This document shows positions 10,373-30,472 of a stretch of 39,155 nucleotides of DNA, piece by piece. The translations under genes and the position numbers were made by a program. Origin of the DNA: an uncultured Eubacterium sp. (GTDB lineage Bacteria; Bacillota; Clostridia; Lachnospirales; Lachnospiraceae); assembly GCA_904420085.1 (NCBI GenBank), contig CAJFUA010000024.1, positions 1-39,155 on the forward strand, read 5' to 3'. The notes under the pieces were generated by a model, which saw only the letters and a list, made by a program, of their open reading frames with translations, ran no database searches and was not told where the DNA came from. How positions within the stretch are numbered: position 1 is the stretch's first letter; every line of letters starts with the position of its first letter.

Positions 10373-10412
10373 ACCTGTTTTTTCTCTCTTTCTTCTGATA
10401 ATAAAAAGGATT

Positions 10413-10454: not shown

Positions 10455-10502
10455 TCTGTTTTATTGACTTGATAATATTGTTCTGTCATTTTACCTGAAC
10501 AT

Positions 10503-10653: not shown

Positions 10654-12798
10654 TTATTTAATAAATGAATCAATGGTTGACTGGTAGCCGTCTGCAACTC
10701 CTGCATATCCTGCATTTTTTACTGCTGATGCCACCTGACTGATGCTTCTTACCGGTCCCATACTTGAGTAAACCGTCACCGCTTCTCCGTTTTCGTAATT
10801 AACGGTTACATAAGCTCTTGCCGTAAAGTTTCTGATATAGTTTGACTCTACCACATCACAGACAGAACCACAGTATGTTCCAACTGTTCCGTTATACCAC
10901 TTGTTTGTTGAGCTATTTTCTTCTTTTACCGTATTTTCTACATTTATCTTTGTATAATCACAGGTAAGAGTCAGTTCCTCTCCTTTTGCCTCGTAAATAT
11001 CTTTTGCCGTAATCAGTGTTCCCTCCGTAATGGCATCGGATGCCACCGCATCCATGTTGTCAGATAAAATCGTTGACTGGAATCGGATTCCGGCTGAACC
11101 AATATAACGGATTCCGGCTCCATTTGCCATCGTCACGGACAATTCATTGACGGAAGTAAATGCCATATCACCTTCTACTGTAACTTCTGTATTTGGTGCA
11201 TACATCTTTCCGTCACAGAGATATCCGTATGCAGCATTTCCTAAAGTAACTTTATTTTCCGATACCTGTACCGGAAGACCATCTACTGTTACAACCGGTC
11301 CTATCGGTTCTGTGTATTTTGCAATATCAATACAGTCAATGTTTGCCGATGAAATATTATTTATATCCTCTCCATACACCGTAAAAAAGTTTCCTTCTCC
11401 GGTACTGTTGTCCAGAACCGGTCCTGAAACAGAAATGGTATTCACACCCTCTGTCAGTTTCACTTTTGTTTTAATGGATGCCGTAGTGTTCCATGTTCCT
11501 GTTGCCGGGGCAACTTTTCCCACTACATCCATCTCATCATCAAAAGGTACCCAGTCATTATCATTTATTTGAATTAAGAATTCGCTGACTTTCGGCGCAC
11601 AGTAGGATAGTGTAACCTCATACACTCCCGCTTCTTCTGCCTCCACAGCCCACATAATGTATTTTTTATCATTATTAATCCAAGTCCAGCCTACGCCCAC
11701 AACCGCACTATTTGAACATGCTGCATAATAATCTCCTGACTGAACGGAATTTCCACCAAGATTTTGAGCGTTTTCTGCTTCATGCCGGCCAATGGCTTTC
11801 GGGTATTCCACCGGAACTTCTGCCTTTTCTAATTCAAAGTAATCCAGATTGATCCATTCCCATCCCATGCCTTCATACCAGATGTTACATGCTCCGGTTA
11901 CGTCAATCGTATTTATCCCCTCTGTCAGTTCTACTGTCAAGGAAATCGTTCCCACCACATTCCACGCAGTCACTGGAGCTTCTGTGGAAATCCAACTTCC
12001 GTTATTAATTCTTACATCAATATTACATGGGTGATTTTCTTCGCCACCTGCATAACCGATGGTCATTTTATAAGTACCTGCCTCTGATGCATTTACTTTT
12101 GTGGTACAGTATGCTCTTCCGTCATTTGGCCATGTATTCATATTTCCCACATATTTTCCACCAGAGAAATTTTCATTCTCGCTGATGGATGCCGGATTAT
12201 CTGCGGAACCCTGCGTAAATGAAATTGCATCTTCCGCTTCATGCCTTCCAATCGCCTCCGGATACGTAACCGTTATCGGATCGGTAACCTCAATATAATC
12301 AAATGTAATAAATTTGGTTGTAACCGTTGCATCTCCCTCACTGTTATTTTTCAAAACAATCACATTTTCACCCGCTTGAAGTGATAATGTCACTTCCTGG
12401 GTGGCAAAAGTATTCCAGCCGTTTGTCGTGGTGGAAGTTCCCGTATTTGCAAAATCCTGATTCACTACTGACCCTTCATTTACCGTAATTTCTACCGGAA
12501 TAACATCCCAATTCATATTGCTTCCCGTAGCATATCGGATTGGAATGGTATAATCTCCTGCCTCACTTACACTTACAGTCATTGTCAGATACTGGGAAGG
12601 TCTGCATACGACTCCTTTACCTCCTGATGCATTTGTCACACTGGTATTAATACTCTGCGCATGACTGATGTCTCCATCCTCTGCCTCGTATCTTGTAATT
12701 GTATCTGCTTTCGTATCCACTGTCTCCAATACCGGAAGCAATCCTGCTATCATAACGATACAGACAACTACAGACCAGACTTTCTTCATTTGTTTCAT
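10654..12798 (-). CDS. Secreted carbohydrate-binding protein with three CBM6/35-like modules
   Basis: 714 residues. Signal peptide 1-32; three CBM6/35-like modules at ~36-172, 186-325 and 339-494; a C-terminal region (~497-714) with no catalytic motif that I recognise. That region holds a GIRFQSTI motif and a late FTARAYVTV strand resembling an uncharacterised domain found at the C-terminus of other clostridial surface proteins. Module 2 is nearly identical to module 2 of the CE2-like protein at 5537, and module 3 resembles the last module of the GH5 at 2819. It lacks the Lys-rich tail of its neighbours. Probably a non-catalytic glucan-capture protein. Good ribosome site (GGAG); 10 bases separate its stop from the peptide gene. 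Confidence 0.82.
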   Translation of the reverse strand: MKQMKKVWSVVVCIVMIAGLLPVLETVDTKADTITRYEAEDGDISHAQSINTSVTNASGGKGVVCRPSQYLTMTVSVSEAGDYTIPIRYATGSNMNWDVIPVEITVNEGSVVNQDFANTGTSTTTNGWNTFATQEVTLSLQAGENVIVLKNNSEGDATVTTKFITFDYIEVTDPITVTYPEAIGRHEAEDAISFTQGSADNPASISENENFSGGKYVGNMNTWPNDGRAYCTTKVNASEAGTYKMTIGYAGGEENHPCNIDVRINNGSWISTEAPVTAWNVVGTISLTVELTEGINTIDVTGACNIWYEGMGWEWINLDYFELEKAEVPVEYPKAIGRHEAENAQNLGGNSVQSGDYYAACSNSAVVGVGWTWINNDKKYIMWAVEAEEAGVYEVTLSYCAPKVSEFLIQINDNDWVPFDDEMDVVGKVAPATGTWNTTASIKTKVKLTEGVNTISVSGPVLDNSTGEGNFFTVYGEDINNISSANIDCIDIAKYTEPIGPVVTVDGLPVQVSENKVTLGNAAYGYLCDGKMYAPNTEVTVEGDMAFTSVNELSVTMANGAGIRYIGSAGIRFQSTILSDNMDAVASDAITEGTLITAKDIYEAKGEELTLTCDYTKINVENTVKEENSSTNKWYNGTVGTYCGSVCDVVESNYIRNFTARAYVTVNYENGEAVTVYSSMGPVRSISQVASAVKNAGYAGVADGYQSTIDSFIK

Positions 12799-15760: not shown

Positions 15761-17452
15761 CTACTCCTTTATTTCTTTCTTTTTATACGCAATCGCCAAT
15801 ACAGCCGCTGACAGGCACATCATCACTGTAATGAGCGCAAAGGTAACTCCGGTCTGTGGAGATTTCATAGAATCATTTTCTGTATCCTGTGCATCTGCCT
15901 CATCTCCATCCTCTTCAATGTCCGCATCGGCAGCCGTTTCTTCCGCTTCGGTAACCTTTTCCTCTACTACCTTCTGCTCTTTTGCTGCCTGTCCGTTGTC
16001 TAATAATAACACCGTTTTATTTGTATTAATTTTTCCTTCTTCTTCAAATTCTACATCAATATAATCATAATTTACCCAATCATCTTCCGAAGTCGGTCCT
16101 GTAACCCAAATGTAGTTTTCTCCCTTTTTCAGATAGACATAGGCAGAAGCCTCACCTACATTGCTCCAACTGTCAGTAGAACTTAAATTAACCTTTGACC
16201 ATTCGTAACCAGAGGTTACAAAAACTGCCATATTTGAAGATTCTGTAGCATATCCCAACGTAACTTTATAGTATCCTGCCTGTTTTGCACTTACTTTATA
16301 TTGGATATAACCCACATTGGAACAGTACTCATCAATCCGGGAAGGACTTGAAATATTCGCCGGGGTAAATTCCCCCACATAAGACTTCTTAGACCATGTT
16401 TCATCTTCGCTTTCTGCCCATTTCATTTTTCCACCGGAGATAATATACGCAGCTTCTGCCTCATATCTGTTGCTTTCACGCTGTGCCGTGGTGGTTTCCT
16501 CTACCGTGTTATTCTTCAGTTCTATGTAATACAATCCGACTTTTCCACCGGTGGCGCTTGCCTGTCTGAATTTGATTGTATTTTTCTCTCCCGCCTTAAA
16601 TCCTGCGTCTGTCAGCATCTTCGTGGAGATACTTTTTACAAGTTGTGTATTGACCTTGGTTCCACTTAAATCAACAATTGTTTCCTTTCCACCGTTGATA
16701 CTCATGGCTAACTGGGCTTTTCCGTTCTGATATTCTGAAACATAATATCCCAAATCCATAGACTGAATGTCACTGCCGGCATCGACAGTAAATGTTGCCG
16801 AGCCCTGCCACTCCTCATCACCGGAGTCATATACAATCGGTCCTGTGTACAAGGTGGCTCCCGAATTATGAAATGCGCTGGTTGGTGCCAATTGCACTTC
16901 ATTCAAGGCAGACTCAAAGGCATAGTATTTATTTGCACTGCTTTGTTTCACTACGGAAATACCTTCCGGATAATTGATGTAATCAAAATATCCCCAATTT
17001 ACCCATGCCAGAATCACCGTATTATTTCCCTGTTTGAAAGGTACCGTCACATTCACTGTAGTATAACCGCTTCCGGTCAGCGAAACGTCGTGTGCCGTAC
17101 CGTTTACAAACAGTTTCAACTTAATGGACGAACCGCCGGATTCGTTTTTTGCATGAATCTGTAACGTATAATCTCCTGCCGTCTCTGCGCGGAGAACTGT
17201 TCTTGCAAAGGTAATGTCCGTCAGTTTATCAAAACTGTCCAATACATCCTGCTGCCAGTATACTTCCACATGCTTTCCTGCGGAATCTCCCGAACCGTTC
17301 TTGATTCTCGCTTTGTTGAGCTGCATATCTTCTATTTCCAGTTTCGTATATTGTACGGCTCCTCTGACAGTTTTCTTGTCTGCCACCGAGATAGACGTTA
17401 CAAAAAGAAGTATGATGACTGATATAAAAGCAATTTTGTTGATTCTCTTCAT
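15761..17452 (-). CDS. Sortase-anchored (SPQTG) carbohydrate-binding surface protein
   Basis: 563 residues. N-terminal signal sequence (~1-30); two beta-rich regions (~35-170 and ~175-315); a clear CBM6/35-like module (~330-475); an Asp/Glu/Ala-rich stretch; then SPQTG (531-535), a hydrophobic segment and the tail YKKKEIKE. This is the cell-wall sorting pattern; SPxTG-type motifs are used by class B sortases of Clostridia such as C. difficile. It is the only protein of the locus with a sortase signal, so it is a candidate wall-fixed glucan receptor. No sortase gene lies in the window. GAGAGGAG precedes the start; it lies 18 bases after the cytosolic GH30 gene in the same presumed operon. Confidence 0.85.
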   Translation of the reverse strand: MKRINKIAFISVIILLFVTSISVADKKTVRGAVQYTKLEIEDMQLNKARIKNGSGDSAGKHVEVYWQQDVLDSFDKLTDITFARTVLRAETAGDYTLQIHAKNESGGSSIKLKLFVNGTAHDVSLTGSGYTTVNVTVPFKQGNNTVILAWVNWGYFDYINYPEGISVVKQSSANKYYAFESALNEVQLAPTSAFHNSGATLYTGPIVYDSGDEEWQGSATFTVDAGSDIQSMDLGYYVSEYQNGKAQLAMSINGGKETIVDLSGTKVNTQLVKSISTKMLTDAGFKAGEKNTIKFRQASATGGKVGLYYIELKNNTVEETTTAQRESNRYEAEAAYIISGGKMKWAESEDETWSKKSYVGEFTPANISSPSRIDEYCSNVGYIQYKVSAKQAGYYKVTLGYATESSNMAVFVTSGYEWSKVNLSSTDSWSNVGEASAYVYLKKGENYIWVTGPTSEDDWVNYDYIDVEFEEEGKINTNKTVLLLDNGQAAKEQKVVEEKVTEAEETAADADIEEDGDEADAQDTENDSMKSPQTGVTFALITVMMCLSAAVLAIAYKKKEIKE

Positions 17453-17470: not shown

Positions 17471-18829
17471 CTAATGAATGATATAAGTGGTAATGGAATG
17501 TGGCGGTAACTCCACATTTGTTCCTGCACCATCTATCTCAATCGCCATCGGATGTTTATCGTCCGATTCACTTTGAATCACTAGCACAATGGATTCATCC
17601 GGATTTTTATAAGCAACCGTATATATGTCCTGCAACGCCTCATTTCTGCAAAGCAGCCGTTTCGCTCCCGGCTGAATATACTTTGAAAAATGTCCGATAT
17701 AATAATAGGAAAGATTATATACGACCCTGTTGCTGTTTCGGTCAATAATGATTGGCGCCTCACAATAATTTCCCACATAGTTTGGACCGCCCATCTCATC
17801 CAGCACCAGATTCCAGTCAATCCATCCTTCACAATAATGATTGAAATCATTGATAATATTTCTGCCGTAAGTTTCTCCGTGTGACCATGCGCCAATTCCT
17901 TCATTGGAACTGGTGACGCCCGAGTTATTTACAATCTCCACACAGCCTTCTGTAAAAATCAGGTGTTTGTCAGGAAATGCCTCATGCACCATGGCCAGAT
18001 TTTCTGATTTATCTGTCACATACCAGTGATATGCCACACCCCAGACAATTTCCTTTGCATTTTTATATGACAAAGTCTCTCTCACTCGTTTGTAAATATT
18101 ATCCTTATTATGATCCCAGATAATAATTTTCACATCACTAAGCCCGGCATTCTCCAATTCTTTAGAGAGATAATCCACGGCAAAAACTGCCTCCTCGTCT
18201 GCGTCCACAATACAGGATGCCCATGTCTGAACCGCCTCCGGCTCGTTCTGAATACTTACCATGGAAATGTCAATGCCCTGTTCCTTCATGCCCAAAATAT
18301 ATTTGGTCATATACTTTGCCCATGCTCCATAATATTTCTTTTGTAAGTGGCCTCCGTGATTTACATCATGGTTGTCTTTCATAAATGCCGGAGGACTCCA
18401 CGGACTGCACATCAGTGTCAGTCCACCGGACACTTTTTCCGCTTCCCGAACCAGGGGAATCACCCATCGGCTGTCCCTCTCCATATTGAAGGTGTCTAAA
18501 TTGTCATCTCCCTCTTCAATATACATATAAGGTTCCAGTGCAAAATCGCATCCGCCGATGGTAGTTCTTCCTAAATTGTAACCGATGCCTTCGCTTTTGC
18601 TGAAATAAGCCTTTACCACATCTTTTTGGTTCTCTTCTGTCGTGTTTGCCAGCGTGTACGCCGCGGCTTCCGTAAAAGCTCCGCCAAATCCCAAATGGGT
18701 CTGAAAGGTTTTACTGCTGTCCACTCTTACATGGTCCACCCGCGTATCAAATTCTTCTTTCAGACTGATGGGATCCAGTTCCTTCCACATCTGGCCGCTG
18801 CCTTTTGCTGTTTGAATTACTTTTACCAT
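17471..18829 (-). CDS. Cytosolic GH30 glycoside hydrolase
   Basis: 452 residues with no signal peptide or membrane segment, so probably cytoplasmic. GH30 features are clear: GFGGAFTEAAAY near the N-terminus, SPWSPPAFMK, acid/base Glu196 in SIQNEPE and nucleophile Glu294 in IFTEGCVE, with the all-beta side domain made from both ends. GH30 contains beta-glucosylceramidase-type enzymes and beta-1,6-glucanases. With the ABC importer in the same operon, it probably cleaves imported beta-linked oligosaccharides. Start ATG at 18829 behind AGAGGTTAAT. Together with the lipoprotein GH30 at 22539 the operon has one outside and one inside GH30. Family assignment firm, linkage specificity unproven. Confidence 0.9.
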   Translation of the reverse strand: MVKVIQTAKGSGQMWKELDPISLKEEFDTRVDHVRVDSSKTFQTHLGFGGAFTEAAAYTLANTTEENQKDVVKAYFSKSEGIGYNLGRTTIGGCDFALEPYMYIEEGDDNLDTFNMERDSRWVIPLVREAEKVSGGLTLMCSPWSPPAFMKDNHDVNHGGHLQKKYYGAWAKYMTKYILGMKEQGIDISMVSIQNEPEAVQTWASCIVDADEEAVFAVDYLSKELENAGLSDVKIIIWDHNKDNIYKRVRETLSYKNAKEIVWGVAYHWYVTDKSENLAMVHEAFPDKHLIFTEGCVEIVNNSGVTSSNEGIGAWSHGETYGRNIINDFNHYCEGWIDWNLVLDEMGGPNYVGNYCEAPIIIDRNSNRVVYNLSYYYIGHFSKYIQPGAKRLLCRNEALQDIYTVAYKNPDESIVLVIQSESDDKHPMAIEIDGAGTNVELPPHSITTYIIH

Positions 18830-18846: not shown

Positions 18847-21800
18847 TTATTCAAACTCAACTTTCAGTTGAGAGTTCCATTCTTTGAACTGATATTTATA
18901 ACCTTTGTAAGTGTAGTCCGAAGACATGTCTGCTTGTGTAGACGAAAGATTGATTTCCGTATTCTTGCTGTCCACAAACCAATATACATCATACCATGTT
19001 CCTTTTTCCGTCAGTTTGGTCAGGTCCACGATTCCCGCAAATTTACCTGAAGTACCCGACTGGTTCTTCACCTGAATTGTCTTATCACCACTTCTTACAT
19101 TCAATGTAACATCCGTATTCTTTAAGGAACCAATATCCGCAGTCACATTTAACACCGGTTTGCCACCGGAAGATGTGATTTTTGCGTTGACATTTTTGAA
19201 GTTTGCCGCCACTTTGGCTCTGGCCGCCTCCTCTTCTGCGGTGTTGGTGTAGTATACTTTTAAGTCGCCTTCCCAGTCGGCAAACCGATACACATTGTCC
19301 TGATAGGAAACAGATATATCCATGCTGTAAACCGATTTGGTTTTTACATCCACATAAGCGCCGGATTTCTTTTCCATCAGCACCACATCATACCACAGTC
19401 CTGATTTGTCCAGTTTTGTCAAATCAAAATCGAATAAGAATCTTCCTGAAGTGTCCGTCAGATTTCCCACTTTTTTCACCTTATCCTCTGTCCGTATTCC
19501 AAGAGAAAGATTGCCGTTGTCAATTCCTTTCATGGTTCCCTGAACACGCAGGAACGGTTTTCGATTTTTTAAGATGAGCACTGCCTTGATTTCGTCGATG
19601 GACTGTCCTTTTGCCAGCCCTGTTGCCGTGTCATCCTCGAAGTAAACTTTTAATGCTCTGTTCCACTCTGCAAATTTGTATGTTTTATTCCGATATGCAA
19701 CACTTTCCGTCATATCTGCGGAAGATACGGTCACATCCTTATATGTTTTGAAAGTTTTATCGCCGATAATCACATCATACCATACGCCTGCACTGGACAA
19801 TTTTGTTAAGTCAAACGTAAAGTTTAAACGATTTCCTTTTCCCTTATTGGCTGCCCGTTTGATTTTATCTTCCGTTCTGATTCCCAGATACATTTGGGAA
19901 GCATTTTTCATTTTTCCTGTGATTGTTAAAACAGGTTTACCATTTTTACTCTGAATGGACGCCTTCACACCTTTCAAATCTTCTGCCGCTTTGATATAAG
20001 TTATTTTCAAAGCCCTCTCCCAGTTCTGGAAAGAATATACTCTCTTTCCTACTGTCAGGGTCTGTTCCATATCGGCCGCTGCCACGGTCAGATCTCTGTA
20101 TTCATCAGAACCTTTGGTACCGATAATTACATCATACCATGTCTCAGCTTTACTTAATTTTGTCAGGTCAAATTTAAAATAAATGTTATTGTCTTTACCC
20201 TGATTATAAACCTTCATTACCTTGTCTTCTGTTCTGATTCCAAGATATCTGTTTGCCGCATTGCTCATCTTACCTTTGACAATCAGATATGGCTTTTTCC
20301 CTGCTTTCTTAATCTCTGCCTTCACACCTTTAATGTCTGTCAGTGCCTTATCATAATATACTTTTAACTGGCCTTCCCAGTCGGCAAACTTGTATACATG
20401 TTTGCCTGCTTCTACCTTGGTCTCCATATCGGCGGCATCGCTAGAAATATCCGTACTGTCGTTAAACTCTGCGTGTCCCACAATAATATCGTACCATGTT
20501 CCAGATTTTGGAATTACAGACAGCCTTATTGTAAATTTAATATTATTTCCTTTGGCATTGTTTGATACCGTGGTAATAATATTGTCTTCATTACGAAGCG
20601 CCATTTTATAATCAGCTGCATTTTCTGTTGTCTTTCCTGTCACAATCAGGTATGCATCCTTTCCTGATTTCGTGATGACCGCCTTCTGATTGGTTATGGT
20701 AACCGGAGCATCTGCCCGCTGTACTTTCAACTGTTCTTCCCAATTCTGGAAAGTGTATTCTTCTTTTCCCACGGTAAGTTTCTGATCCATATTCGCATTG
20801 GATACACTCAAATCATAATATGCATCGTCATCTTCATAATAAATCAGCACATCATACCATTCATTTTTCTTTTCCATCTGACTCAGATCAACAGATGCCT
20901 GAAAACTTCCGTCTGTTTTTGCACTGTTTGCCTGCTTTATAACTGTATCTCCGGTTCTGATGGCAAGACTTAAATTGTCCGCTTTTGTTTTATCAATGGT
21001 TCCCGTAACCGTCAGCATCGGCCTTCCGTTTACGGAATTCAGTTTCGCCGTCAGACCTTTAAAGTCTTTGACAATCGTATAATTGATTTTCAACAGTCCG
21101 CCATACTCTTCAAAATTGTATTTGTTTTCTCCCACAATAACCGCATCATCCATGTCAGCCACCGTTGCCGGTATGTCATAGTAGGCAATCTCATTTACGC
21201 ATTTTACCTGTATATCATACCAGACTCCCTTGGAATATAACTGTTTCAGCGGGAACTCAAAGGAGAATCTTTTTCCTTCATTCACTTTGTTTTCTGCCAC
21301 ATACTGCTGTCCGTCGGAAACGGCAAGAATCAACTGATAATCCTCTCCTCCGATTCCGTATTTTAACGTTCCTTCTACTTTCAAAACTGCTTTTTTGCCG
21401 GAAGTACCCAGATCCACTTTGATATCATCATAGGCGTCCACCAGTTTTGTGATTTTTAAAGCATTTTCATCGGTCAGTCCATAAGTGGCGTTTCCTGCCT
21501 TCACGGAATATTTACTCAGATCAATCCCCTGAGCATTGATGGACCACTCGCACATGGTTCCGTTTTCTGTAAGGAAAATGCACAGATTGTTTGATGCTTT
21601 CTTTAATTCATCCATCGGAACCACAAACTTAAATGCCGTCTTATCTCCACCCTTATAGGAATTGTCTACCATAAATGTAGATGTAGGATCGTCGCCGTCA
21701 AAGTTTCCTGCTCTAAGCTGCATGACGCGCTCTGCATCTTCCGATATTGCATACAGGTTTCCTTCGATTTCCAAATAAGGTTTATCATCTTTTGCGTACA

Positions 21801-22530
21801 TATTCAGTGTTACCGGCCCCTGTGTTGCCTGATAAAACAATGGTGCGGAAATATAGCGAAACTTTCCGTTCTTTCCATTAAACACAAGATAATAATATGG
21901 CTCTGCCTTTGTGGCATTCTTATCTGAATAGGAGGAGGTGAGAATATCAATATTTTCCTCCATCGCTTTTGCTGTTTCGTCAAAAACCGGGCTGGCGCTT
22001 CTGTAAACATTTTTACCTTCCGGGTCAATGAAAGAACTCCATGAGGTGTTGCCATCCACTTCCATTTCAATGTTTACAATATCGCCGTTCATCCATGTTT
22101 TCGGCGCCATCTTAGGAACGGTAATGGGATAAGTTCCCACTTCTCCGTCTGCCTCCACATACAGGAAGTAATCTCCCGGCTCATAAGTTACTCCTTTGAT
22201 TCCAAAAATATTATTTTCTTTCTTCTCATATACAAGTAAATCTGATTTTTCCTTATCAAAGGTATCATTTTTTGAAAAATAAATATTTAAATTTTCTTTT
22301 GCCGCAAACTTTTCTTCCAAGGTAACATCTAAATCATATGTGTGGATTCCTTTCTGTGTCATGGATACAAAATCAATTCCCACAACCTCATACTTTTCGG
22401 TGGAAAGGCTTCCCAGTTTTCCGCCGCCAAACACACCGGTAAGAAACAATGTTACCACTACGGCTGCAATTACGACAACTGCCACAATTGCCGATATAAG
22501 AATTTTTGCTTTTTTACTTAATTTTTTCAT
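18847..22530 (-). CDS. Large membrane-anchored repeat protein (seven ~120-residue repeats), unknown function
   Basis: 1227 residues from the ATG at 22530, chosen because AGGAGGCAAT lies directly before it; a TTG 15 bases upstream has no ribosome site. A Lys-rich start and one strong hydrophobic segment (~8-35) make a signal anchor with the bulk outside. Residues ~45-346 form a unique domain. Then follow seven repeats, ~347-467, 468-588, 589-709, 710-828, 829-947, 948-1077 and 1078-1209, and a partial eighth. Each opens with a Y-x-F-x-x-W-E-x-x-L-K-V-x-Y pattern, has G-K-P-x-L-x-V-x-G and I-R-T-E-D-K in the middle, and W-Y-D-V near its end. I recognise no named family. Set between the two GH30 genes, a glucan-binding or spacer function is plausible. 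Confidence 0.85.
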   Translation of the reverse strand: MKKLSKKAKILISAIVAVVVIAAVVVTLFLTGVFGGGKLGSLSTEKYEVVGIDFVSMTQKGIHTYDLDVTLEEKFAAKENLNIYFSKNDTFDKEKSDLLVYEKKENNIFGIKGVTYEPGDYFLYVEADGEVGTYPITVPKMAPKTWMNGDIVNIEMEVDGNTSWSSFIDPEGKNVYRSASPVFDETAKAMEENIDILTSSYSDKNATKAEPYYYLVFNGKNGKFRYISAPLFYQATQGPVTLNMYAKDDKPYLEIEGNLYAISEDAERVMQLRAGNFDGDDPTSTFMVDNSYKGGDKTAFKFVVPMDELKKASNNLCIFLTENGTMCEWSINAQGIDLSKYSVKAGNATYGLTDENALKITKLVDAYDDIKVDLGTSGKKAVLKVEGTLKYGIGGEDYQLILAVSDGQQYVAENKVNEGKRFSFEFPLKQLYSKGVWYDIQVKCVNEIAYYDIPATVADMDDAVIVGENKYNFEEYGGLLKINYTIVKDFKGLTAKLNSVNGRPMLTVTGTIDKTKADNLSLAIRTGDTVIKQANSAKTDGSFQASVDLSQMEKKNEWYDVLIYYEDDDAYYDLSVSNANMDQKLTVGKEEYTFQNWEEQLKVQRADAPVTITNQKAVITKSGKDAYLIVTGKTTENAADYKMALRNEDNIITTVSNNAKGNNIKFTIRLSVIPKSGTWYDIIVGHAEFNDSTDISSDAADMETKVEAGKHVYKFADWEGQLKVYYDKALTDIKGVKAEIKKAGKKPYLIVKGKMSNAANRYLGIRTEDKVMKVYNQGKDNNIYFKFDLTKLSKAETWYDVIIGTKGSDEYRDLTVAAADMEQTLTVGKRVYSFQNWERALKITYIKAAEDLKGVKASIQSKNGKPVLTITGKMKNASQMYLGIRTEDKIKRAANKGKGNRLNFTFDLTKLSSAGVWYDVIIGDKTFKTYKDVTVSSADMTESVAYRNKTYKFAEWNRALKVYFEDDTATGLAKGQSIDEIKAVLILKNRKPFLRVQGTMKGIDNGNLSLGIRTEDKVKKVGNLTDTSGRFLFDFDLTKLDKSGLWYDVVLMEKKSGAYVDVKTKSVYSMDISVSYQDNVYRFADWEGDLKVYYTNTAEEEAARAKVAANFKNVNAKITSSGGKPVLNVTADIGSLKNTDVTLNVRSGDKTIQVKNQSGTSGKFAGIVDLTKLTEKGTWYDVYWFVDSKNTEINLSSTQADMSSDYTYKGYKYQFKEWNSQLKVEFE

Positions 22531-22538
22531 ATTGCCTC

Positions 22539-24026
22539 CTACCAAACAAATGTCACCACGCTCTGTGGCTGTATCGTATATGTGAAATCTTTGCCGTCAT
22601 AAGTAACGTCCACACTGTTCTCATACTTATCTGAAAGATTGGTTGCCACACAGACTACATGACCGTCTGCTCTTAAGAATGCGGAAGCCGTGATTTCCGG
22701 ACTATCGCTTTCACAGCCAATCAGATTTGCTTTTCCCTCATCTGTATAAATATATTTCGACACATGTGCCATGGCATAATATGCAGAGTTTTTAGACACG
22801 CTGTTGTCATCTTTCATGATATTTACGATTCCCAGACAGTCATTGGTAGTTTTTGCCGGAGTTCCGTCTTCAAACAATGCCAGATTCCAGTAAACGGCTG
22901 AAGCAGACCCATAATTCATCGGCGTCAGTATCATTTTTTCCAGACTGTAGCTGATATTGGATGCGAAATCCCTGCTCCATATACCTTCCGCAATTTCCGT
23001 CAGGAATGTTCTTGTGTCGTATTTTTCATTATATACCTGAAATCCTACGGCAAACTCATCCGCAGCCTCAAAGGTTCCATATCCGTGAAGCGCCATTCCT
23101 TCCACATACTGCGCCACTTCTTTATCACCTAAAATATTTTCCGCATAATCATCTACTGTGGAATTGATTGTAGGATCATAGTTATGATCGTATGCCAAAA
23201 GTTTTGTTTCCAGTCCGGCATCTTCCAGTTTTTCTCCGGTCAGTTTGATTACCCTCGCCATCTGGTACTCATCCATCGGCATACACGGATACTGCATGTT
23301 GTCCACCAGTGGTTCGTTCTCCACGGACATGTATGTAATGTCGATTCCTTCTTTTTTGTAGGCTTCCACATATTTTACCAGATAGTCTGCATAGCAGGAT
23401 TCATATTCCTGTGCCAGACTGCCTCGATTTAAAACTTTGGATTCCTTCATCCATGCCGGTGCAGACCATGGAGCTGCAATAATTGTTACATCCGGATTAA
23501 TTTCAAGAATCTCTTTTAATACCGGTATCAGTTCCTGCCTGTCATATTCAATGCTGAATTTTTCTAATTTTTCATCTGTCTCACCGTCCGGCAAGTCGTC
23601 ATATGTAAAATAAGTCAGTTCTCCATCAATATATGTGGCGTAATCAGAGGATGCAACCGGCACTCTTACAATGCTGAAAGCCGCACCGTCTTTCCCATAC
23701 ATGGATTCCAATACTTCCCTTCTCTCTGATTCTTCCATCTGATATAAGACATAGGCTGCCGAGTGGGTCAACGCCCCTCCAAATCCTTCAATTTCCTGTC
23801 TCACGTCTTCTTCGTCAATGGTAATTTTTGCATTGACGGATGTGTCATCTACCGCATCAAATGTCAAATCCGATTCTCTGGACATTAATTTGGATTTTGT
23901 TCCCGTGGTTTCATATACCTGAACATATCCTTCATTGGATGCCGTCTTACGTCCGCATCCGCAAATCATTGTGACACTTAATGCTGTTACAAGCGTTATC
24001 GCTGTGATTTTCTTTGTTACTTTCAT
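22539..24026 (-). CDS. GH30 glycoside hydrolase, lipoprotein
   Basis: 495 residues. Lipoprotein signal with ICGC (Cys24) after a hydrophobic stretch, so membrane-anchored outside the cell. GH30 core: EGFGGALTHSAAY, APWSAPAWMK, acid/base Glu238 in SVENEPL, nucleophile Glu344 in FLTEIAEG, and a C-terminal beta domain ending in QPQSVVTFVW. Some GH30 subfamilies are endo-beta-1,6-glucanases and others beta-glucosidase-like; the sequence alone does not settle which. It is the partner of the cytosolic GH30 at 17471. GGAG at seven bases precedes the start. It follows the second permease by 16 bases; the next gene starts eight bases after its stop. Confidence 0.9.
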   Translation of the reverse strand: MKVTKKITAITLVTALSVTMICGCGRKTASNEGYVQVYETTGTKSKLMSRESDLTFDAVDDTSVNAKITIDEEDVRQEIEGFGGALTHSAAYVLYQMEESERREVLESMYGKDGAAFSIVRVPVASSDYATYIDGELTYFTYDDLPDGETDEKLEKFSIEYDRQELIPVLKEILEINPDVTIIAAPWSAPAWMKESKVLNRGSLAQEYESCYADYLVKYVEAYKKEGIDITYMSVENEPLVDNMQYPCMPMDEYQMARVIKLTGEKLEDAGLETKLLAYDHNYDPTINSTVDDYAENILGDKEVAQYVEGMALHGYGTFEAADEFAVGFQVYNEKYDTRTFLTEIAEGIWSRDFASNISYSLEKMILTPMNYGSASAVYWNLALFEDGTPAKTTNDCLGIVNIMKDDNSVSKNSAYYAMAHVSKYIYTDEGKANLIGCESDSPEITASAFLRADGHVVCVATNLSDKYENSVDVTYDGKDFTYTIQPQSVVTFVW

Positions 24027-24042: not shown

Positions 24043-24966
24043 CTACTCTTTTACTGCCCCTGCACTGATTCCTCCAATAATATATTTCTGACATACAAAG
24101 AATAAAATAATCATTGGTACGGAAAGTACAACGGAACCTGCCAGCATCACCGGGTAAATTTCCGGATTGCTGGAACCTGCTGAAATCAGGGAACCAAGTC
24201 CCAGAGCCAATGTTCTGTTCTCTTCTGAAGATGTTGCCACCAGAGGCCACAGGAAATTGTTATAGTTCCACATAAATGTGGTAACACCTGTTACAATCAG
24301 CATTGGTGACGCCATCGGAAGCGCAATTCTGAAAAAGGTCTGCAGTCTTCCTGCTCCGTCAATCATCGCCGCCTCTTCCAGTTCCCTGCTAAAGGAATAA
24401 AAATGCTGTCTCATTAAGAATACATTGTAAATGGACATTGCAAACGGTAACATTAACGCCCACAGGGAATCATAAATTCCCATCTCCCGGCAGATAATCA
24501 GATTCGGAATCATCATGACGGTGCCCGGAATCATCATTGCCAATATAATTATCCGGAATAAAACATTCTTTCCTTTAAAATTGATTCTGGCAAAGGCATA
24601 TCCTGCCATACTGTTAAACACGGTATTGACTACTGTATTCACAGCCGCAACAATCAGTGTGTTTTTCAACAATACCGTTGCATTCAGGTATTCCAGAGCG
24701 TTTTTAAAATTTTCTGTTTTAAAGAATATCTCTCCATCCGCATTACGTGGAATTAAAGTAAATTTCACGTAACTTAACATGCCCTGTCCGTTTCCTGTTT
24801 CTTTGAACGCTGAGGCAACCAGCCACAAAAACGGAAGTATAAAGGAGACTGCCAGAGCCACCAGAATCACATATAAAACAGTTCTGCTGACTGCTCTTTT
24901 CGGTTTCAATTTTTTTCTTCGGATAACGATGCCTGCATCATTATTTCTTTCTGCTCTTGTTGCCAC
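24043..24966 (-). CDS. ABC sugar transporter permease, MalG-type
   Basis: About 307 residues with six membrane helices. The EAA loop EEAAMIDGAGRLQTFFRIALP links it to the ATPase subunit. Start chosen at GTG 24966, nine bases after AAGGAGG; the GTG at 24990 in the same frame lies before that ribosome site. With this start it overlaps the upstream permease gene by 26 bases. It forms the channel with the MalF-type subunit. No ATPase gene is in the locus, so a shared MsmX/UgpC-like ATPase encoded elsewhere is expected, as is usual for Firmicutes oligosaccharide importers. Confidence 0.92.
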   Translation of the reverse strand: MATRAERNNDAGIVIRRKKLKPKRAVSRTVLYVILVALAVSFILPFLWLVASAFKETGNGQGMLSYVKFTLIPRNADGEIFFKTENFKNALEYLNATVLLKNTLIVAAVNTVVNTVFNSMAGYAFARINFKGKNVLFRIIILAMMIPGTVMMIPNLIICREMGIYDSLWALMLPFAMSIYNVFLMRQHFYSFSRELEEAAMIDGAGRLQTFFRIALPMASPMLIVTGVTTFMWNYNNFLWPLVATSSEENRTLALGLGSLISAGSSNPEIYPVMLAGSVVLSVPMIILFFVCQKYIIGGISAGAVKE

Positions 24967-25909
24967 GTCTCTTCTTACCTCCTTCCCCACTGTCCATATT
25001 CTGAGGCTGTACTTTAAACTGAATAAAGGTAATTATCATGATGATGATAAACAGAATATATGACATTGCACAGGCAACGCCCATGTTGTTATATTCAAAA
25101 GCCTGATTGTACAGACCAAGCATATATGTCATTGTCGATTTTTCAGGACCTCCGCCGGTCGTCAGGTACATCTGGTCAAATGCCTGAAACGCACCGATTA
25201 CACTGGTTATGGAAATAAAAAATATAATCGGTGTGACGGAAGGTACGGTAACGTGAAAAAACTTTTTAACCGGTCCTGCGCCGTCAATTTCTGCCGCTTC
25301 GTACAGAGATTCATTAATTCCTTTCATTGCCGAGAGCATAATCAGCGTATTGTATCCCAGTCCTCCCCAGATAGCCATCACTGCCAATGTGTATAGCGCA
25401 GTGCTTTTTGTTGCCAGAAATGAAATATGGGTTCCCAGCAGCTGATTAATCATACCGTGCTGTGGGTCCAGCATGAACATCCAGATGGCCGCAATGGCAA
25501 CACCGGATGTGACGGACGGAATATAAAAGATGGTCTTAAATATTCCCTCTCCCCGTACTTTTGAGTTGAGCAGCGCCGCTACCACCAACACCAGAATGAC
25601 GCTTGGCGGTACGGTCAGCAATATATACTTAATGGTAACAACCAGAGACGGCCAGAAATCATCAAACAGTCCCTGATAGTTGGATAGCAGACGGGTATAA
25701 TTTTGGATTCCCACAAATTTCATCGGGGTTCTCATATTCCATTCGTTCAGCGATATCACGAAAGCGATAATCATCGGCGCCAACTGGAATACCAGAAAAT
25801 ATACAACCAGAGGCAGTACAAACAGCCATCCTGTGATATTTTCCCGAAACTGTTTTGTTTGAAACAACTTTATCTTCCGTTTTTTTGCTGATTTTGTTTT
25901 TGACAACAT
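24941..25909 (-). CDS. ABC sugar transporter permease, MalF-type
   Basis: About 322 residues from the ATG at 25909, which follows GGGGAGGAACCT; the more upstream in-frame start at 25933 would begin in the intergenic hairpin. Six membrane helices, starting with GWLFVLPLVVYFLVFQLAP, and the EAA loop YEAAEIDGAGPVKKFFHVTVP. It pairs with the MalG-type permease and the binding protein at 25976 as a CUT1-family importer. It is separated from the binding-protein gene by a 66-base gap holding a hairpin. Confidence 0.92.
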   Translation of the reverse strand: MLSKTKSAKKRKIKLFQTKQFRENITGWLFVLPLVVYFLVFQLAPMIIAFVISLNEWNMRTPMKFVGIQNYTRLLSNYQGLFDDFWPSLVVTIKYILLTVPPSVILVLVVAALLNSKVRGEGIFKTIFYIPSVTSGVAIAAIWMFMLDPQHGMINQLLGTHISFLATKSTALYTLAVMAIWGGLGYNTLIMLSAMKGINESLYEAAEIDGAGPVKKFFHVTVPSVTPIIFFISITSVIGAFQAFDQMYLTTGGGPEKSTMTYMLGLYNQAFEYNNMGVACAMSYILFIIIMIITFIQFKVQPQNMDSGEGGKKRRGNKSRKK

Positions 25910-25923
25910 AGGTTCCTCCCCAA

Positions 25924-25966
25924 AACCTTGCAAAGACCCGTCTTGTCCAACGTGTCTTTGCAGGTT
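25924..25966 (-). other. Stem-loop between binding-protein and permease genes
   Basis: On the minus strand AACCTGCAAAGAC pairs with GTCTTTGCAAGGTT, with one bulged base, around a ~16-base loop, just after the binding-protein stop codon. Only TTTT follows, so it is at most a leaky terminator. Hairpins in this position commonly stabilise the upstream message and raise binding-protein amounts over permease, as between malE and malF. Confidence 0.7.
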
Positions 25967-25975: not shown

Positions 25976-27226
25976 TTATTTCAATCCCAGTGCCGCTTTT
26001 GAGGTACTTACTGCGTCATCCAGATTTTTCTGAATTTCACCGCCATTTAAAATGGTCTCTAATGCAGACGCCAGATAATTGTCGTTTACTTCCAGCCATC
26101 CGTTAATCTGTGGTCTTGCCACTGCTGTTTCCAACTGTTTCAAAACAACTTCTTTTAACGGATTGTCGGTCTTTGCCAACGCTTTCAGTGATGAGAAGTT
26201 ACCTGTGTACTCAGCAACTTTCTGGCTGTTTTCTTCTTTTGATAAATATTCTATAAACTGAAAAGCTTCATCCTGTTTTGATGAGGTACTGTATACAACC
26301 AGGTTTTCTCCACCGATATTAGAATAGGAAGTTCCTCCTTCTTTCTGAGGTACAACAAGCATTGCCCCAAAATCCAAATCCGGGAAGTTGGTCTGTAAGG
26401 AATCAATATCAGAACCGCCACCCAAGGTGAACGCCACATTGCCGTTACCAAAAGCGGATGTGGAATTTCTGATTTCTTCCGGTGAATAACTGTATAAGTC
26501 TACTAAGAACTGGCATGCATCCACGCCGCTCTGGCTGTTAAAGGTTAAATCCGTCAACTCTTCATTGGTAAAACTTCCGCCTGCGCAGCTTAAAAATGCC
26601 TGATAATACCATGATGCATATCCGCCGCTTCCGATTCCTGCAAAAGCTGCTTTGGTAGGATTTGCCGCTACTTCTTTTGCGATTGCCAGCATATCATCCC
26701 AATCCTTTGGAAGATTGTTCTCATTGACCAGTTTTTTATTGTACAAAAGTACGGATGTGGTAATGGTCAGTGGAACACCGTAAACCTTCTCATCAAGTAA
26801 ACAGGTATCGTAAGCGCTTTCAAAAAACTTATCCTGACTGATGGTTTCCGACTTGTTTACCTTCTCCGTCAAATCCACCAATGTGCCGTCGGAGCCGAAC
26901 TCTGCCATTCTCGGCTGGTCTAAATAGGAAACATCCGGTCCTTTTTTATTTGCCAGTGCACTGTTTAACTTTGTATTGAAACTGTCCTTTGGCACGAAAG
27001 ATACTTTTACTTTAATTCCTGTATCATCCGTAAAGTTCTTAATCAGAGTCTCAAAATCTTTCTTATCCTCTAAAGACTGAGGCTCATATGCCCAGAATGC
27101 CAATTCGTTGGAATCGCTTTCTGATTCTGAATCTCCTCCACAGCCTGTAAGGCCCACCATGGTTGTCACTGCCATTGCTCCTACAAGAGCAACGCTGATT
27201 GCCTTCTTTAAAAATCCCTTTCTCAT
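25976..27226 (-). CDS. ABC transporter sugar-binding lipoprotein (family 1)
   Basis: 416 residues. Lipoprotein signal with LTGC (Cys29) and a Ser/Glu/Asp linker, then an extracellular solute-binding protein fold typical of CUT1 importers: an early LAFWAYEP strand, GPDVSYLDQPRMAEF and a YGVPLTITTSVLLYNKKL segment near the ligand cleft. It would hand glucan-derived oligosaccharides to the two permeases. AAGGAGG precedes the ATG. It lies 70 bases downstream of the lacI-type gene; no terminator separates them. Confidence 0.93.
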   Translation of the reverse strand: MRKGFLKKAISVALVGAMAVTTMVGLTGCGGDSESESDSNELAFWAYEPQSLEDKKDFETLIKNFTDDTGIKVKVSFVPKDSFNTKLNSALANKKGPDVSYLDQPRMAEFGSDGTLVDLTEKVNKSETISQDKFFESAYDTCLLDEKVYGVPLTITTSVLLYNKKLVNENNLPKDWDDMLAIAKEVAANPTKAAFAGIGSGGYASWYYQAFLSCAGGSFTNEELTDLTFNSQSGVDACQFLVDLYSYSPEEIRNSTSAFGNGNVAFTLGGGSDIDSLQTNFPDLDFGAMLVVPQKEGGTSYSNIGGENLVVYSTSSKQDEAFQFIEYLSKEENSQKVAEYTGNFSSLKALAKTDNPLKEVVLKQLETAVARPQINGWLEVNDNYLASALETILNGGEIQKNLDDAVSTSKAALGLK

Positions 27227-27296: not shown

Positions 27297-28253
27297 TTAT
27301 TTCGTTGAACCGTTTACTTTCAATACCGGTTCTATAAACATCTCTGTGGCTGCGTATTCTCCTGATTTCAGCACCTCCACCATACGTTCTGCCAATGCCT
27401 TTCCTGCTTCATATACCGGCTGTTGGATGGTGGACAGATTTGGAGTTACTAATTTTTCATATCCTAAGCCGTCAAATCCCATAACACCCAGTTCATCCGG
27501 CACAGAAATGTCTTTCTCATTTGCATAACGCATGACGCCCAGAGCCAGCACATCACTGGCACATACCAGTCCGTCTACCGTTGCCTGCTTCCATATTTCA
27601 CTTGTGACTCTATATCCGTCTTCCTCGTGGTTTGGAACTTTTACATCTGCGTATTGGGGAATTTCCATTCCGAACTCCTCCATACAGTCAACATATCCCT
27701 GATGTCGTTCAATGGGATATTCCAGTTCATTATCGATTCCGATATACCCTATATTCCTGTAACCACGCTCAATCATATATTTGGTAGCCATATATGTTCC
27801 ATGATAGTTGTTAATATCCACCCAGTTGGAACTGTGACTGCTGTTTCCAAATAAAATAATTGCTTTTTCATGGGAGTGACGTAATAACTCTTTTTCCTGT
27901 TCTATAGACAGTCCCATAGCTATAATTCCGTCACACGTATACTTTTCATACCCTTCTCTGGACAGGAGCATGGAATATCCGTTTTCTCCCAGCTTCTCTC
28001 CGATTCCTGCAATGGTCTGCAATGTGAACGGATGCAGTGGGTCAATATCTCCGGCTATATATACGCATATAATATTTGTTTTCTTCGTTGCCAGCAGCCT
28101 TGCCACCATGTTTGGCTGATATCCTATTTCTTCCACTGCTTTTTTTATTTTTTCGAATGTTTTTGGTTTCAGCTTATCCGGTTCATTAAAATATCTGGAT
28201 ACCGTCATTGCGGAAACTCCTGTTGCCTGTGCAATGTCCTTTATTGTTGCCAT
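27297..28253 (-). CDS. LacI-family transcriptional regulator
   Basis: 318 residues. N-terminal helix-turn-helix IKDIAQATGVSAMTVSRYF (4-22) with the hinge helix region NMVARLLA (~48-55), then a periplasmic-binding-protein-like sugar sensor domain. It is the second gene of the long operon, 12 bases after the first GH5, behind AAAGGATTATT. It is the natural candidate to bind the matching dyads at 9021-9036 and 30367-30382 and respond to a glucan oligosaccharide, which would make the operon autoregulated. Assignment to these sites is inference, because CcpA could also fit them. Confidence 0.93.
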   Translation of the reverse strand: MATIKDIAQATGVSAMTVSRYFNEPDKLKPKTFEKIKKAVEEIGYQPNMVARLLATKKTNIICVYIAGDIDPLHPFTLQTIAGIGEKLGENGYSMLLSREGYEKYTCDGIIAMGLSIEQEKELLRHSHEKAIILFGNSSHSSNWVDINNYHGTYMATKYMIERGYRNIGYIGIDNELEYPIERHQGYVDCMEEFGMEIPQYADVKVPNHEEDGYRVTSEIWKQATVDGLVCASDVLALGVMRYANEKDISVPDELGVMGFDGLGYEKLVTPNLSTIQQPVYEAGKALAERMVEVLKSGEYAATEMFIEPVLKVNGSTK

Positions 28254-28265: not shown

Positions 28266-30281
28266 TTACTTCACCACAATCTTTTTCACACGGGATTCGG
28301 TTCCATAAATAAATTTTTTCCCGATTTTCATATACCCACATACTTTTATAAAATATGTTCCCTTCTTTTTTAATTTGCAGGTAAATGATTTGGAAGTAAC
28401 CCGTTTGACTGTTTTATATTTACCCTTTCTTTTTCTGCTGACGGATATCCTGTATCCCTTTGCACCCTTTACCTTCTTCCATGACAGTTTTACTTTTTTC
28501 CCTTTCTTTTTTGCCCTTACTTTCACAGCTTTGGTCCGGGTTGCCGTGGTCAGTATCTGACTTTCACCCTCATAAATCTTACCGTCAATTACTTTATACG
28601 GAACGATTTTAAATTTATATCCGGTTCCTGCCTTTAATTTTGAAACTGTACATGTTGTACGGTAAGATTTGAAACTTTTAATCCGCTGATACTTTCCTTT
28701 TTTATATTGATAAATATAATATCCGTCTGCATTAAGATTTTTGAACCATACAAGAGTAATACTTTTTTCTTTCTGCGTAATTTTTTTGTTTCTCAGTTTT
28801 ACTTTCGACGGAACAATTTTAAATGTTATAGTCAGAATTCCATCATAATTTCCTGCCCCTGTAATCACTGCCTGTGCCGTTCCGCACTGGATATTATTGG
28901 TGTATCTTACTGTATAATCTGTTCCTTTTACTAAAACCTTGCCGTTTAATTTCACTGTCAGTGACGGCTTTATTTCTCTTCCTGTGTAGACTTGATTGGG
29001 AACGCTGCTGATTGCAGCGCCACCAATCTTCGTCTGGGAAGGGGAATAAAAAATGAAATTTTCAATAATAGGTTTAATCTCTCTGTTTTCTACGGCATTT
29101 TCCGTATTGCATGCCTGCCATTTTGCCTTGATGGACTCAAAGGATTCTGTGGCAACATCCGCACTGGAAATAGGCATATTATAAATGCCCCAACTGTTGT
29201 CTCCATTGCCGGTTACCTTGTACGTCCACAACGTCCAACTGATATCATGACTGTTTAATTCTGCCAGACATTTTTTCCAAGATTCCGGATTTGAGAAAAA
29301 CGAAGTCTCTCCGATATAAGACGGTACGTTATAATCCATCATCTGAATCGCCTGCATTTTCTTTTTTACCGTGGCTAACTGGTCTTCCGGATTGGTCAGA
29401 CTGTCGTAATTGTAACAATGATATTCATACATGACATTACTCCAGCCGTATCTGTCAGGGTTTGGCAGATTGTAAGGTTCCCATGTTCCCTCCATAATGA
29501 TGACATGGTTTTTATCTATCTTTCTGATGGCATCATAAGTTCTGTCATATAAATCCCAAACTGTGCTGTCTGTATATTCTCCTGCCGCACAATAAGGTTC
29601 ATTTAACAGATCATAGCCTGCCACAATAGGATTTCCATTGTAATGCCGGGCGATCAGTTCCCAAATCTGAATCAGTAAGTTCTGATTGTACACTGCATCC
29701 GGTCCCTGCCATAAACTTTTGTTAGAATTTATGTCGCCGGAATGGTCTCTGTCATTTTGGGAACCCGGTGCGCCATGCATATCTATAATGACATACATGC
29801 CTCTTTTCCCTGCTTCACTGACGAACCAGTCGATTCTGTCAAAAGCATCTTCCCTGACTTCACCATTTCTGTCAATAATATTGTAATACCATATCGGAAG
29901 CCTGAGACAGTTCATTCCCATCTCCTGACAGTTATCAAAGTCTTTGATTGTCCAAAAATTATCATAATATACATTTAAAAGTTCATTTGCCTTTTCCTCA
30001 CCAAATCTGGAAATCAATGTGCTTTCAATGGTCTTCTGATCCTGCACGGTTCCCGTCTCCTGTGTGGGACACATCCACAGTTCCTGAACAAACCATCCGC
30101 CTGCATTGATACCTCTTAGCAAAATACGGTTTCCTGTACCACTCTCATTTCTGAGAGATGTTCCGTTGGCTTTTAAAAAATCTTTATTTGTAATTCCTTC
30201 TGCCTTTACCAGATTCGACATTCCAAGCCCGGCAACCAAAGCAATTAACAAAATTTCAATATATCTCAAAATACGATTCAT
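28266..30281 (-). CDS. Secreted GH5 glycoside hydrolase with Ig-like and FnIII-like domains
   Basis: 671 residues from the ATG at 30281 (GGGAG eight bases before; the in-frame start 15 bases upstream overlaps this ribosome site). Signal peptide 1-27; GH5 domain ~32-405 with DMHGAPGSQNDRDHSG, acid/base Glu228 in LLNEPY and nucleophile Glu324 in YIGETSFF; an Ig-like domain (~412-490) with GTDYTVRYTNN and ITGAGNYDG; an FnIII-like domain (~495-585); and a Lys-rich FnIII-like tail (~590-671). The catalytic domain is close to those at 2819 and 9098, but binding modules are replaced by Ig/FnIII. First gene of the long operon, ~85-110 bases after the operator-promoter. A beta-1,3-glucanase-type activity is inferred from the HGAPGSQN signature. 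Confidence 0.9.
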   Translation of the reverse strand: MNRILRYIEILLIALVAGLGMSNLVKAEGITNKDFLKANGTSLRNESGTGNRILLRGINAGGWFVQELWMCPTQETGTVQDQKTIESTLISRFGEEKANELLNVYYDNFWTIKDFDNCQEMGMNCLRLPIWYYNIIDRNGEVREDAFDRIDWFVSEAGKRGMYVIIDMHGAPGSQNDRDHSGDINSNKSLWQGPDAVYNQNLLIQIWELIARHYNGNPIVAGYDLLNEPYCAAGEYTDSTVWDLYDRTYDAIRKIDKNHVIIMEGTWEPYNLPNPDRYGWSNVMYEYHCYNYDSLTNPEDQLATVKKKMQAIQMMDYNVPSYIGETSFFSNPESWKKCLAELNSHDISWTLWTYKVTGNGDNSWGIYNMPISSADVATESFESIKAKWQACNTENAVENREIKPIIENFIFYSPSQTKIGGAAISSVPNQVYTGREIKPSLTVKLNGKVLVKGTDYTVRYTNNIQCGTAQAVITGAGNYDGILTITFKIVPSKVKLRNKKITQKEKSITLVWFKNLNADGYYIYQYKKGKYQRIKSFKSYRTTCTVSKLKAGTGYKFKIVPYKVIDGKIYEGESQILTTATRTKAVKVRAKKKGKKVKLSWKKVKGAKGYRISVSRKRKGKYKTVKRVTSKSFTCKLKKKGTYFIKVCGYMKIGKKFIYGTESRVKKIVVK

Positions 30282-30366
30282 ATTTTTATCTCCCACTTTT
30301 TACATCACACTTCCCTGTTGATTTTTACTTTGATTCAAGGGATTAGATGTATGAATGTTGTGCAAA

Positions 30367-30417
30367 ATGTTATCGGTAACATGTTTTGATTATAACACCC
30401 GCCTGTTTTTTTGTATA
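30367..30417 (-). promoter_or_regulatory. Promoter with LacI/CcpA-type operator for the long glucan operon
   Basis: On the minus strand an extended -10 TGTTATAAT (hexamer 30389-30394) has TATACA (30412-30417) 17 bases upstream as -35. Six bases downstream of the -10 lies ATGTTATCGGTAACAT (plus-strand reading, 30367-30382), which differs by one base from the site at 9021-9036. The position over the start point suggests repression. The core also fits the cre consensus. Confidence 0.8.
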
Positions 30418-30424
30418 TTGTCAA

Positions 30425-30460
30425 AAAATGCCAAAAATGTTATAACATTTTTGGCATTTT
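30425..30460 (-). terminator. 36-bp perfect palindrome terminating the pyr operon
   Basis: The sequence 30425-30460 is an uninterrupted perfect inverted repeat centred between 30442 and 30443, with core TGCCAAAAATGTTA and its complement and AAAA/TTTT flanks. It follows the pyrD stop by 12 bases, and TTTTTT ends it on the minus strand. It separates the pyr genes from the glucan operon promoter. Confidence 0.85.
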
Positions 30461-30472
30461 GCACATATTTTT

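Follow-up and report, generated by a model that had tools for sequence, protein, structure and literature searches.

What might a 1227-residue protein of divergent tandem repeats, matching no named sequence family, do between two genes for glycoside hydrolases of family GH30? The question is raised by contig CAJFUA010000024.1 (assembly GCA_904420085.1) from an uncultured Eubacterium sp. of the Lachnospiraceae, whose 39,155 nt are analysed here as one window. The answer favoured, with a probability of about one half, is that this repeat protein is a membrane-anchored, non-catalytic surface glycan-binding protein (SGBP) of a Gram-positive β-glucan operon, the glucan being β-1,6- and/or β-1,3-linked. 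We infer its export, extended shape, glycan binding and ligand.

Six lines of evidence were counted for glycan capture: eight copies of one domain, with nothing further C-terminal; confident β-sandwich models of the repeats; a gene placed 8 nt after a GH30 gene whose product has BT3312 as its nearest solved enzyme (E 4.3e-57); the presence in the BT3312 locus of a gene for BT3313, a multi-Ig-domain protein shown to bind 1,6-β-glucan (PMC5481569); structural neighbours of the TarS type, including domains described as carbohydrate-binding modules, or CBMs (PMC5156392); and, in the same cluster, a GH5 protein nearest to a glucan 1,3-β-glucosidase along with an oligosaccharide-type solute-binding protein.

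In the mechanism proposed, the N-terminal segment would fix the protein in the membrane, and two proximal segments followed by eight tandem immunoglobulin (Ig)-like domains would project outward. The polysaccharide would be held at many sites simultaneously by the repeats, perhaps chiefly by the four basic distal ones, and so captured beside a lipoprotein GH30 and the solute-binding protein. The role would be that of the Ig-domain surface glycan-binding proteins in Bacteroides. An earlier, sequence-only reading of this DNA had likewise proposed a binding role like that of SusE and SusF; the proposal now has partial support, and is reasonable but unproven.

Architecture of the repeat protein

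The reading frame runs along the minus strand from an ATG at 22530 to a stop at 18849-18847, leaving gaps of 8 and 17 nt to the flanking genes. An alternative frame of 1232 aa begins at a TTG; the ATG is preferred because an AGGAGG ribosome-binding site stands immediately 5' of it. The elements of the gene are as follows.

18847..22530, minus strand: repeat-protein gene, open frame of 1227 aa
22432..22506, minus strand: predicted membrane segment, aa 9-33, from hydropathy and sequence
22111..22413, minus strand: segment A, aa 40-140, acidic, non-repeat
21826..22110, minus strand: segment B, aa 141-235, acidic, non-repeat
21445..21825, minus strand: domain D0, aa 236-362, divergent eighth copy (repeat profile, E 7.5e-5; best of 999 shuffles, 0.08)
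21076..21444, minus strand: domain D1, aa 363-485, acidic; repeat profile
20713..21075, minus strand: domain D2, aa 486-606, acidic; repeat profile
20350..20712, minus strand: domain D3, aa 607-727, acidic; repeat profile
19993..20349, minus strand: domain D4, aa 728-846, basic; modelled together with D5
19630..19992, minus strand: domain D5, aa 847-967, basic; modelled singly and with D4
19246..19629, minus strand: domain D6, aa 968-1095, basic; repeat profile
18850..19245, minus strand: domain D7, aa 1096-1227, slightly basic; Y-F-W-LKV block at its end

Hydropathy and sequence agree on a single hydrophobic segment (aa 9-33) after a lysine-rich N-terminal start: the top 19-residue window lies at aa 10 (mean 3.19), and none past aa 40 exceeds 1.6. 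This supports membrane anchorage through one N-terminal segment, as the sequence-only reading had predicted. Inspection of the sequence revealed neither a lipobox cysteine nor a sortase motif at the C-terminus.

The same reading had counted seven divergent repeats of about 120 residues. All seven stand: they start at aa 350, 471, 592, 713, 832, 951, and 1081, and half a block at 1213 closes the series. When each repeat is searched for with a profile built from the remaining six, it is found at E 3.3e-17 to 2e-42. (Each of these seven leave-one-out runs searched 1000 sequences, the repeat plus 999 shuffles of it; the best shuffle over all runs gave E 0.0036.) The count itself was understated, as the profile match identifies D0 as a divergent copy preceding the seven, for eight domains in total. 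Segments A and B (aa 40-235) match the repeat profile only at chance level (E 26 and 110), and D7 is the extreme C-terminus, with nothing beyond the last repeat. The other repeats are 24-32% identical to the first and 31-50% identical to the fifth. The shared blocks described earlier hold in their cores: W-Y-D is invariant (7/7), as is L-K. Their exact forms are less general, I-R-T-E-D-K occurring in three of seven repeats (R4-R6) and W-E-x-x-L-K-V in three of the eight copies of that block.

With the repeat starts given above, this last block opens each repeat, a placement that the models reverse. AlphaFold2 was run on R5 with an alignment of all seven repeats and returned a model with pLDDT 87.4 and pTM 0.77. 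Averaged over ten residues, pLDDT is 55-62 up to residue 30 and 89-97 from there to the end. The starting copy of the Y-x-F-x-x-W-x-x-x-L-K-V block is therefore weak and the ending copy confident, and for this reason the block is modelled as the last hairpin of the domain rather than its beginning. This would explain why the protein ends exactly at that block. A model of D4-D5 at the revised limits places it likewise (pLDDT 90.4 over 242 residues); it was built on four non-overlapping alignment rows, the pairs D1-D2, D3-D4, and D5-D6 being left out, and its pTM of 0.63 makes the angle between the domains uncertain. Each repeated domain is predicted with good confidence to be an Ig-like β-sandwich (pLDDT 87-90).

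Charge differs between the two halves of the protein. Segments A and B, like domains D0-D3, have acidic pI values of 4.5-5.3 (each with a net charge of -3 to -8); D4-D7 have basic ones of 8.0-9.7 (each with a net charge of +1 to +9). The basic distal half may meet an anionic partner.

Family, fold and relatives

That the repeats belong to no nameable family was borne out by every sequence search. Neither Pfam nor NCBIfam has a model that the whole protein matches at its cut-off, and Pfam scans of the seven repeats singly (best E 0.024) and of the N-terminal segments (best E 0.16) found no family. No Pfam CBM profile was matched by the protein, its repeats or its N-terminal segments; nor did DUF5016 or any other SGBP domain in Pfam or NCBIfam reach its cut-off in the protein. 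Sequence searches of the PDB gave a best E of 0.31 for the single-sequence query (CSK) and 0.074 for the repeat-profile query (ORF12), both set aside as chance; the profile found no Tar chain up to E 10. A profile search had been put forward as a check on the sequence-only reading, and it assigned the repeats to no known non-carbohydrate family; neither of the two outcomes named in advance as refuting that reading was observed.

Structure searches were more suggestive. The single-domain model matched no PDB chain at E <= 0.001, and nothing in a viral structure library at that threshold. Among the best 50 rows of 1240 PDB matches at E <= 10, however, 12 are chains of Staphylococcus aureus TarS, TarK, and TarL (TMq 0.42-0.53; probability 0.91-1.00; E 0.012-0.097). 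The remaining 38 are scattered (TMq 0.24-0.41), many being Ig-type receptor or transcription-factor domains; human CD160 is the top row by E-value. By this comparison of models, the TarS, TarK, and TarL accessory domains form the one coherent group of structural neighbours, weak by E-value. The likeness would be a lead towards glycan or wall-polymer binding, not a family assignment. Prediction of one repeat for comparison with CBM β-sandwiches, another suggested check, thus yielded the Ig-like β-sandwich but no named CBM in those 50 rows.

A supposed likeness of the W-Y-D and F-D-L-T-K-L motifs to accessory domains of TagF-type enzymes failed the sequence test on proteins from the genus. Frames of at least 300 aa on both strands of loci L030-L075, which hold PF04464-type proteins, gave a best domain E of 0.086, and hhalign of the repeats against five such proteins gave probabilities of 0.1-0.7%. 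The structural match to TarS, TarK, and TarL is all that remains of that idea. PF04464 matches, some of them partial, number 4-8 per genome in the 23 genus genomes and 0-2 per genome in the 17 others searched.

Relatives were sought with the seven-repeat profile in 144 genomes of relatives, 397 of the family, 392 of the order, and 398 of the phylum; the sets overlap, and each includes the protein's own genome. At E <= 0.01 the genomes matched numbered one, one, four, and one, respectively. The own genome returned the same seven hits in every search, and no credible relative outside it was found in any of the four. Judged to be chance were L027 (E 6.1e-4, order search), whose match falls in a transporter loop, and L028 (E 0.0035) and L029 (E 0.007), partial matches to unrelated-looking proteins. 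(L027 encodes, at 850-2679, what we take from its sequence to be a GPH-type sugar transporter; the marginal profile match lies in a loop of about 110 residues inserted into it.) A single-sequence search of the 144 relatives, tblastn of phages and plasmids, and pattern scans of limited sensitivity (two of genome contigs and one of viral contigs) found no relative either. On the genomes searched, with no metagenome scan made, the repeat family appears to be an orphan.

The operon and systems like it

The gene lies where the sequence-only reading had put it: between two GH30 genes, downstream of a solute-binding protein and two permeases. It is one of 14 genes, all on the minus strand, that run from 30296 to 2819 with gaps ranging from a 50-nt overlap to 96 nt. 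In order of transcription its neighbours are as follows, the repeat-protein gene falling between the two GH30 genes.

28266..30296, minus strand: GH5 and fn3; in the PDB, closest to glucan 1,3-β-glucosidase A
27297..28253, minus strand: LacI-type regulator
25976..27226, minus strand: sugar solute-binding protein; nearest solved chain, Lin1841
24043..25933, minus strand: two overlapping ABC permeases (24043-24990; 24941-25933)
22539..24026, minus strand: upstream GH30, lipoprotein-type start; nearest solved enzyme, BT3312 (5NGK)
17471..18829, minus strand: downstream GH30 lacking an evident signal; in the PDB, closest to 2WNW and glucosylceramidases
15761-17452, minus strand: CBM6-like (below cut-off), with C-terminal SPQTG and membrane segment, by scan and sequence
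12863-15745, minus strand: CE2_N, GDSL, CBM35, and CBM6, by Pfam
10654-12798, minus strand: CBM6 and CBM35, no enzyme domain matched, by Pfam
9098-10561, minus strand: GH5, by Pfam
5537-9001, minus strand: CE2_N and CBM35, by Pfam
2819-5533, minus strand: GH5 and CBM35, by Pfam

β-Glucan is the best guess at the substrate, and to judge from its genes the operon looks like a β-glucan locus, in keeping with the glucan operon claimed earlier. In the PDB the chain nearest to the upstream GH30, 5NGK, is followed by glucosylceramidases at E about 4e-38; the specificity of the downstream GH30 is less clear, because its nearest chains are 2WNW and glucosylceramidases. The GH5 protein at 28266-30296 (of the three GH5s, the one searched in the PDB) has glucan 1,3-β-glucosidase A as its nearest chain, at E 4.3e-26. 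Lin1841, the nearest chain to the solute-binding protein, is presumably a binder of β-glucooligosaccharides. One CE2-type protein also has some likeness to a xylan/glucomannan deacetylase, at 79 bits against a cut-off of 500. The pustulan used in the study that describes 5NGK, the structure of BT3312, carried about 2% O-acetyl (PMC5481569), which would suit the operon's two CE2-type genes.

A Gram-positive polysaccharide utilization locus (gpPUL) is defined in PMC10318527 by a regulator, a polysaccharide-degrading enzyme, and a carbohydrate transport system occurring together. Here these are the LacI-type regulator, the GH30 and GH5 enzymes, and the solute-binding protein with its two permeases, no ATPase gene being seen among them. 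As would be expected of an SGBP gene, the repeat-protein gene stands in a glycan-utilization locus, beside genes for GH30s, a transporter, GH5, CE2-type proteins, and CBMs.

The closest functional model, by analogy, would be BT3313 from the 1,6-β-glucan locus of Bacteroides thetaiotaomicron. It contains several DUF5016 (immunoglobulin) domains and binds 1,6-β-glucan in gels and by isothermal titration calorimetry, and the same locus encodes BT3312, a GH30_3 endo-1,6-β-glucanase (PMC5481569). The likeness is that of a multi-Ig-domain surface protein in a locus with GH30_3, for the GH30 beside the repeat-protein gene is nearest to BT3312. However, BT3313 is a lipoprotein on the outer-membrane side with DUF5016, whereas the repeat protein has a membrane segment and eight domains matching nothing in Pfam; and glycan binding, measured for BT3313, is predicted for the repeat protein.

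S. aureus TarS, TarK, and TarL carry accessory domains that may have the same Ig-like β-sandwich. These are, however, parts of enzymes that build teichoic acid, whereas the repeat protein has eight domains in a row without an enzyme; and no sequence similarity to the repeats was found in the PDB profile search or among the PF04464-type genus proteins. Ruminococcus bromii, which is Gram-positive, offers a further comparison, by description only. Its Sas20 is a surface starch-binding protein involved in amylosome assembly (PMC9112005); starch and the amylosome set it apart from the repeat protein, which has no Pfam match.

Blautia producta has a cell-anchored endo-glucanase with four fused CBM4 modules, and Gram-positive β-glucan loci are said in the same source to lack a separate SGBP, enzyme-borne CBMs often taking the role (PMC10318527). 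Common to both bacteria are a Gram-positive β-glucan locus, a transporter of the solute-binding-protein type, and multi-domain glycan binding at the surface (putative here). In Blautia, however, the CBM4 modules are fused to the enzyme, whereas in this operon the array consists of unnamed domains on a protein of its own; given the lack reported for such loci, a separate binder in this operon would be unusual. Literature searches on the structures of TarL and TarK, on Firmicutes glucan binders that have Ig domains and a membrane anchor, and on Gram-positive GH30_3 loci gave nothing that is used here.

Several points weigh against glycan capture. No CBM was matched by sequence or named in the best 50 structural rows, and the single-domain hits are weak (no E <= 0.001). 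With the two-domain model, a phospholipase C and an integrin fibronectin pair pass E 0.001 (TMq 0.22 and 0.24), TarS comes third (E 1e-3; TMq 0.31), and the best 50 rows include neither TarK nor TarL. An additional binder is not required: CBM35 or CBM6 is already matched above cut-off in four operon proteins, among them the 10654-12798 product, in which no enzyme domain was matched. The NCBIfam model for the BT3312 endo-1,6-β-glucanase, the best hit for both GH30s (274 and 253 bits), does not discriminate, because another GH30 from the host genome reaches 231 bits; the two operon scores lie far below the cut-off of 700. Co-occurrence offers no test, since no relatives were found. Finally, to the extent that the models hold, the basic distal domains and Tar-like fold would equally fit a wall-polymer role.

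Such a role would have the domains bind the cell's own anionic, teichoic-acid-like wall polymer, embedding the protein in the wall and spacing or positioning the operon's surface enzymes. The coherent structural neighbours do belong to wall-teichoic-acid enzymes, D4-D7 are basic, and PF04464 matches abound in all 23 genus genomes. Yet the PF04464-type genus proteins examined show no sequence link to the repeats, D0-D3 and segments A and B are acidic, the gene sits within a catabolic operon, and the TarS paper calls polymer binding by its modules possible, not shown (PMC5156392). This explanation is doubtful; if it held, the protein would be an example of how glycan-degrading enzymes are positioned within the wall of the cell that makes them.

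Tandem Ig-like domains are also a common stalk design, and the best structural rows are full of Ig-type protein–protein domains. The array could therefore be a stalk or protein scaffold, giving length or docking the operon's enzymes without binding glycan. Stalks usually carry cargo at the tip, however, and here the C-terminus is only the last repeat; moreover, every copy keeps the W-Y-D core along with further conserved columns, although the reason may be structural. We consider a stalk or scaffold unlikely. Least probable by far is a passenger gene, gained with the cluster and without functional tie to the operon. The lack of relatives in the searched genomes and the position of the cluster, in an interval variable within the genus, would suit a passenger; the 8 and 17 nt to its neighbours and an orientation common to 13 other genes in a closely spaced run argue otherwise.

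Surface glycan binding by an anchored protein is the reading preferred over these. A more specific version is put forward only tentatively: the repeats would be a new CBM family with the fold of the wall-teichoic-acid enzymes, forming an eight-fold, charge-graded array that captures β-1,6-glucan, and the protein would be a free-standing Gram-positive SGBP, the kind said in PMC10318527 to be missing from such loci. If true, a dedicated multi-domain binder in a Gram-positive locus would be a convergent solution for catching fungal-type glucan, and would supply a new binding-domain family whose single soluble domains are about 120 residues long.

Further surface proteins and the genomic setting

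Two neighbours are themselves candidate surface binders. The 563-aa product of 15761-17452 ends in SPQTG, a membrane segment, and a positive tail, a likely sortase anchor; the 714-aa product of 10654-12798 has both CBM6 and CBM35 above cut-off. The C-termini of the 2819-5533, 5537-9001, 12863-15745, and 28266-30296 products are very rich in lysine and arginine (fn3 was matched in the last only), and might bind the wall or another anionic surface. The host is presumably Gram-positive: PF04464 genes and the SPQTG-type end point that way.

The genome is a draft rated 95% complete and 7.7% contaminated. The operon adjoins pyrD. This gene occurs in all 23 genus genomes, and the 22 besides the host's own carry it at 66-94% identity; that part of the contig therefore fits the genus. 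At E <= 1e-50 the upstream GH30 matched one of the 397 family genomes, its own, and this lack of orthologs precludes a neighbourhood comparison based on it; at E <= 1e-20 it matched 11 of 23 genus genomes, its own included, at 27-32% identity elsewhere.

Around pyrD in eight genus stretches, tblastn (E <= 1e-10) found none of the operon genes; L104 reaches only about 200 bases past pyrD, and L106 runs into the end of its contig about 5.7 kb beyond that gene. A pyrE match was located in six of these stretches, separated from pyrD by as little as about 15 nt in L100 and by as much as about 7.5 kb in L105. The loci covered by this observation are L099, L100, L101, L102, L103, L105, and L109, together with 2130-2323 and 30296-30473 of the window. 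Window positions 2130-2184 match the start of pyrE and its upstream sequence; the host genome carries an intact pyrE on a different contig, and this copy is 79% identical to the pyrE of L100. The pyrD-pyrE interval here seems to hold the 27.5-kb cluster, which is probably a species-level gain in a variable interval.

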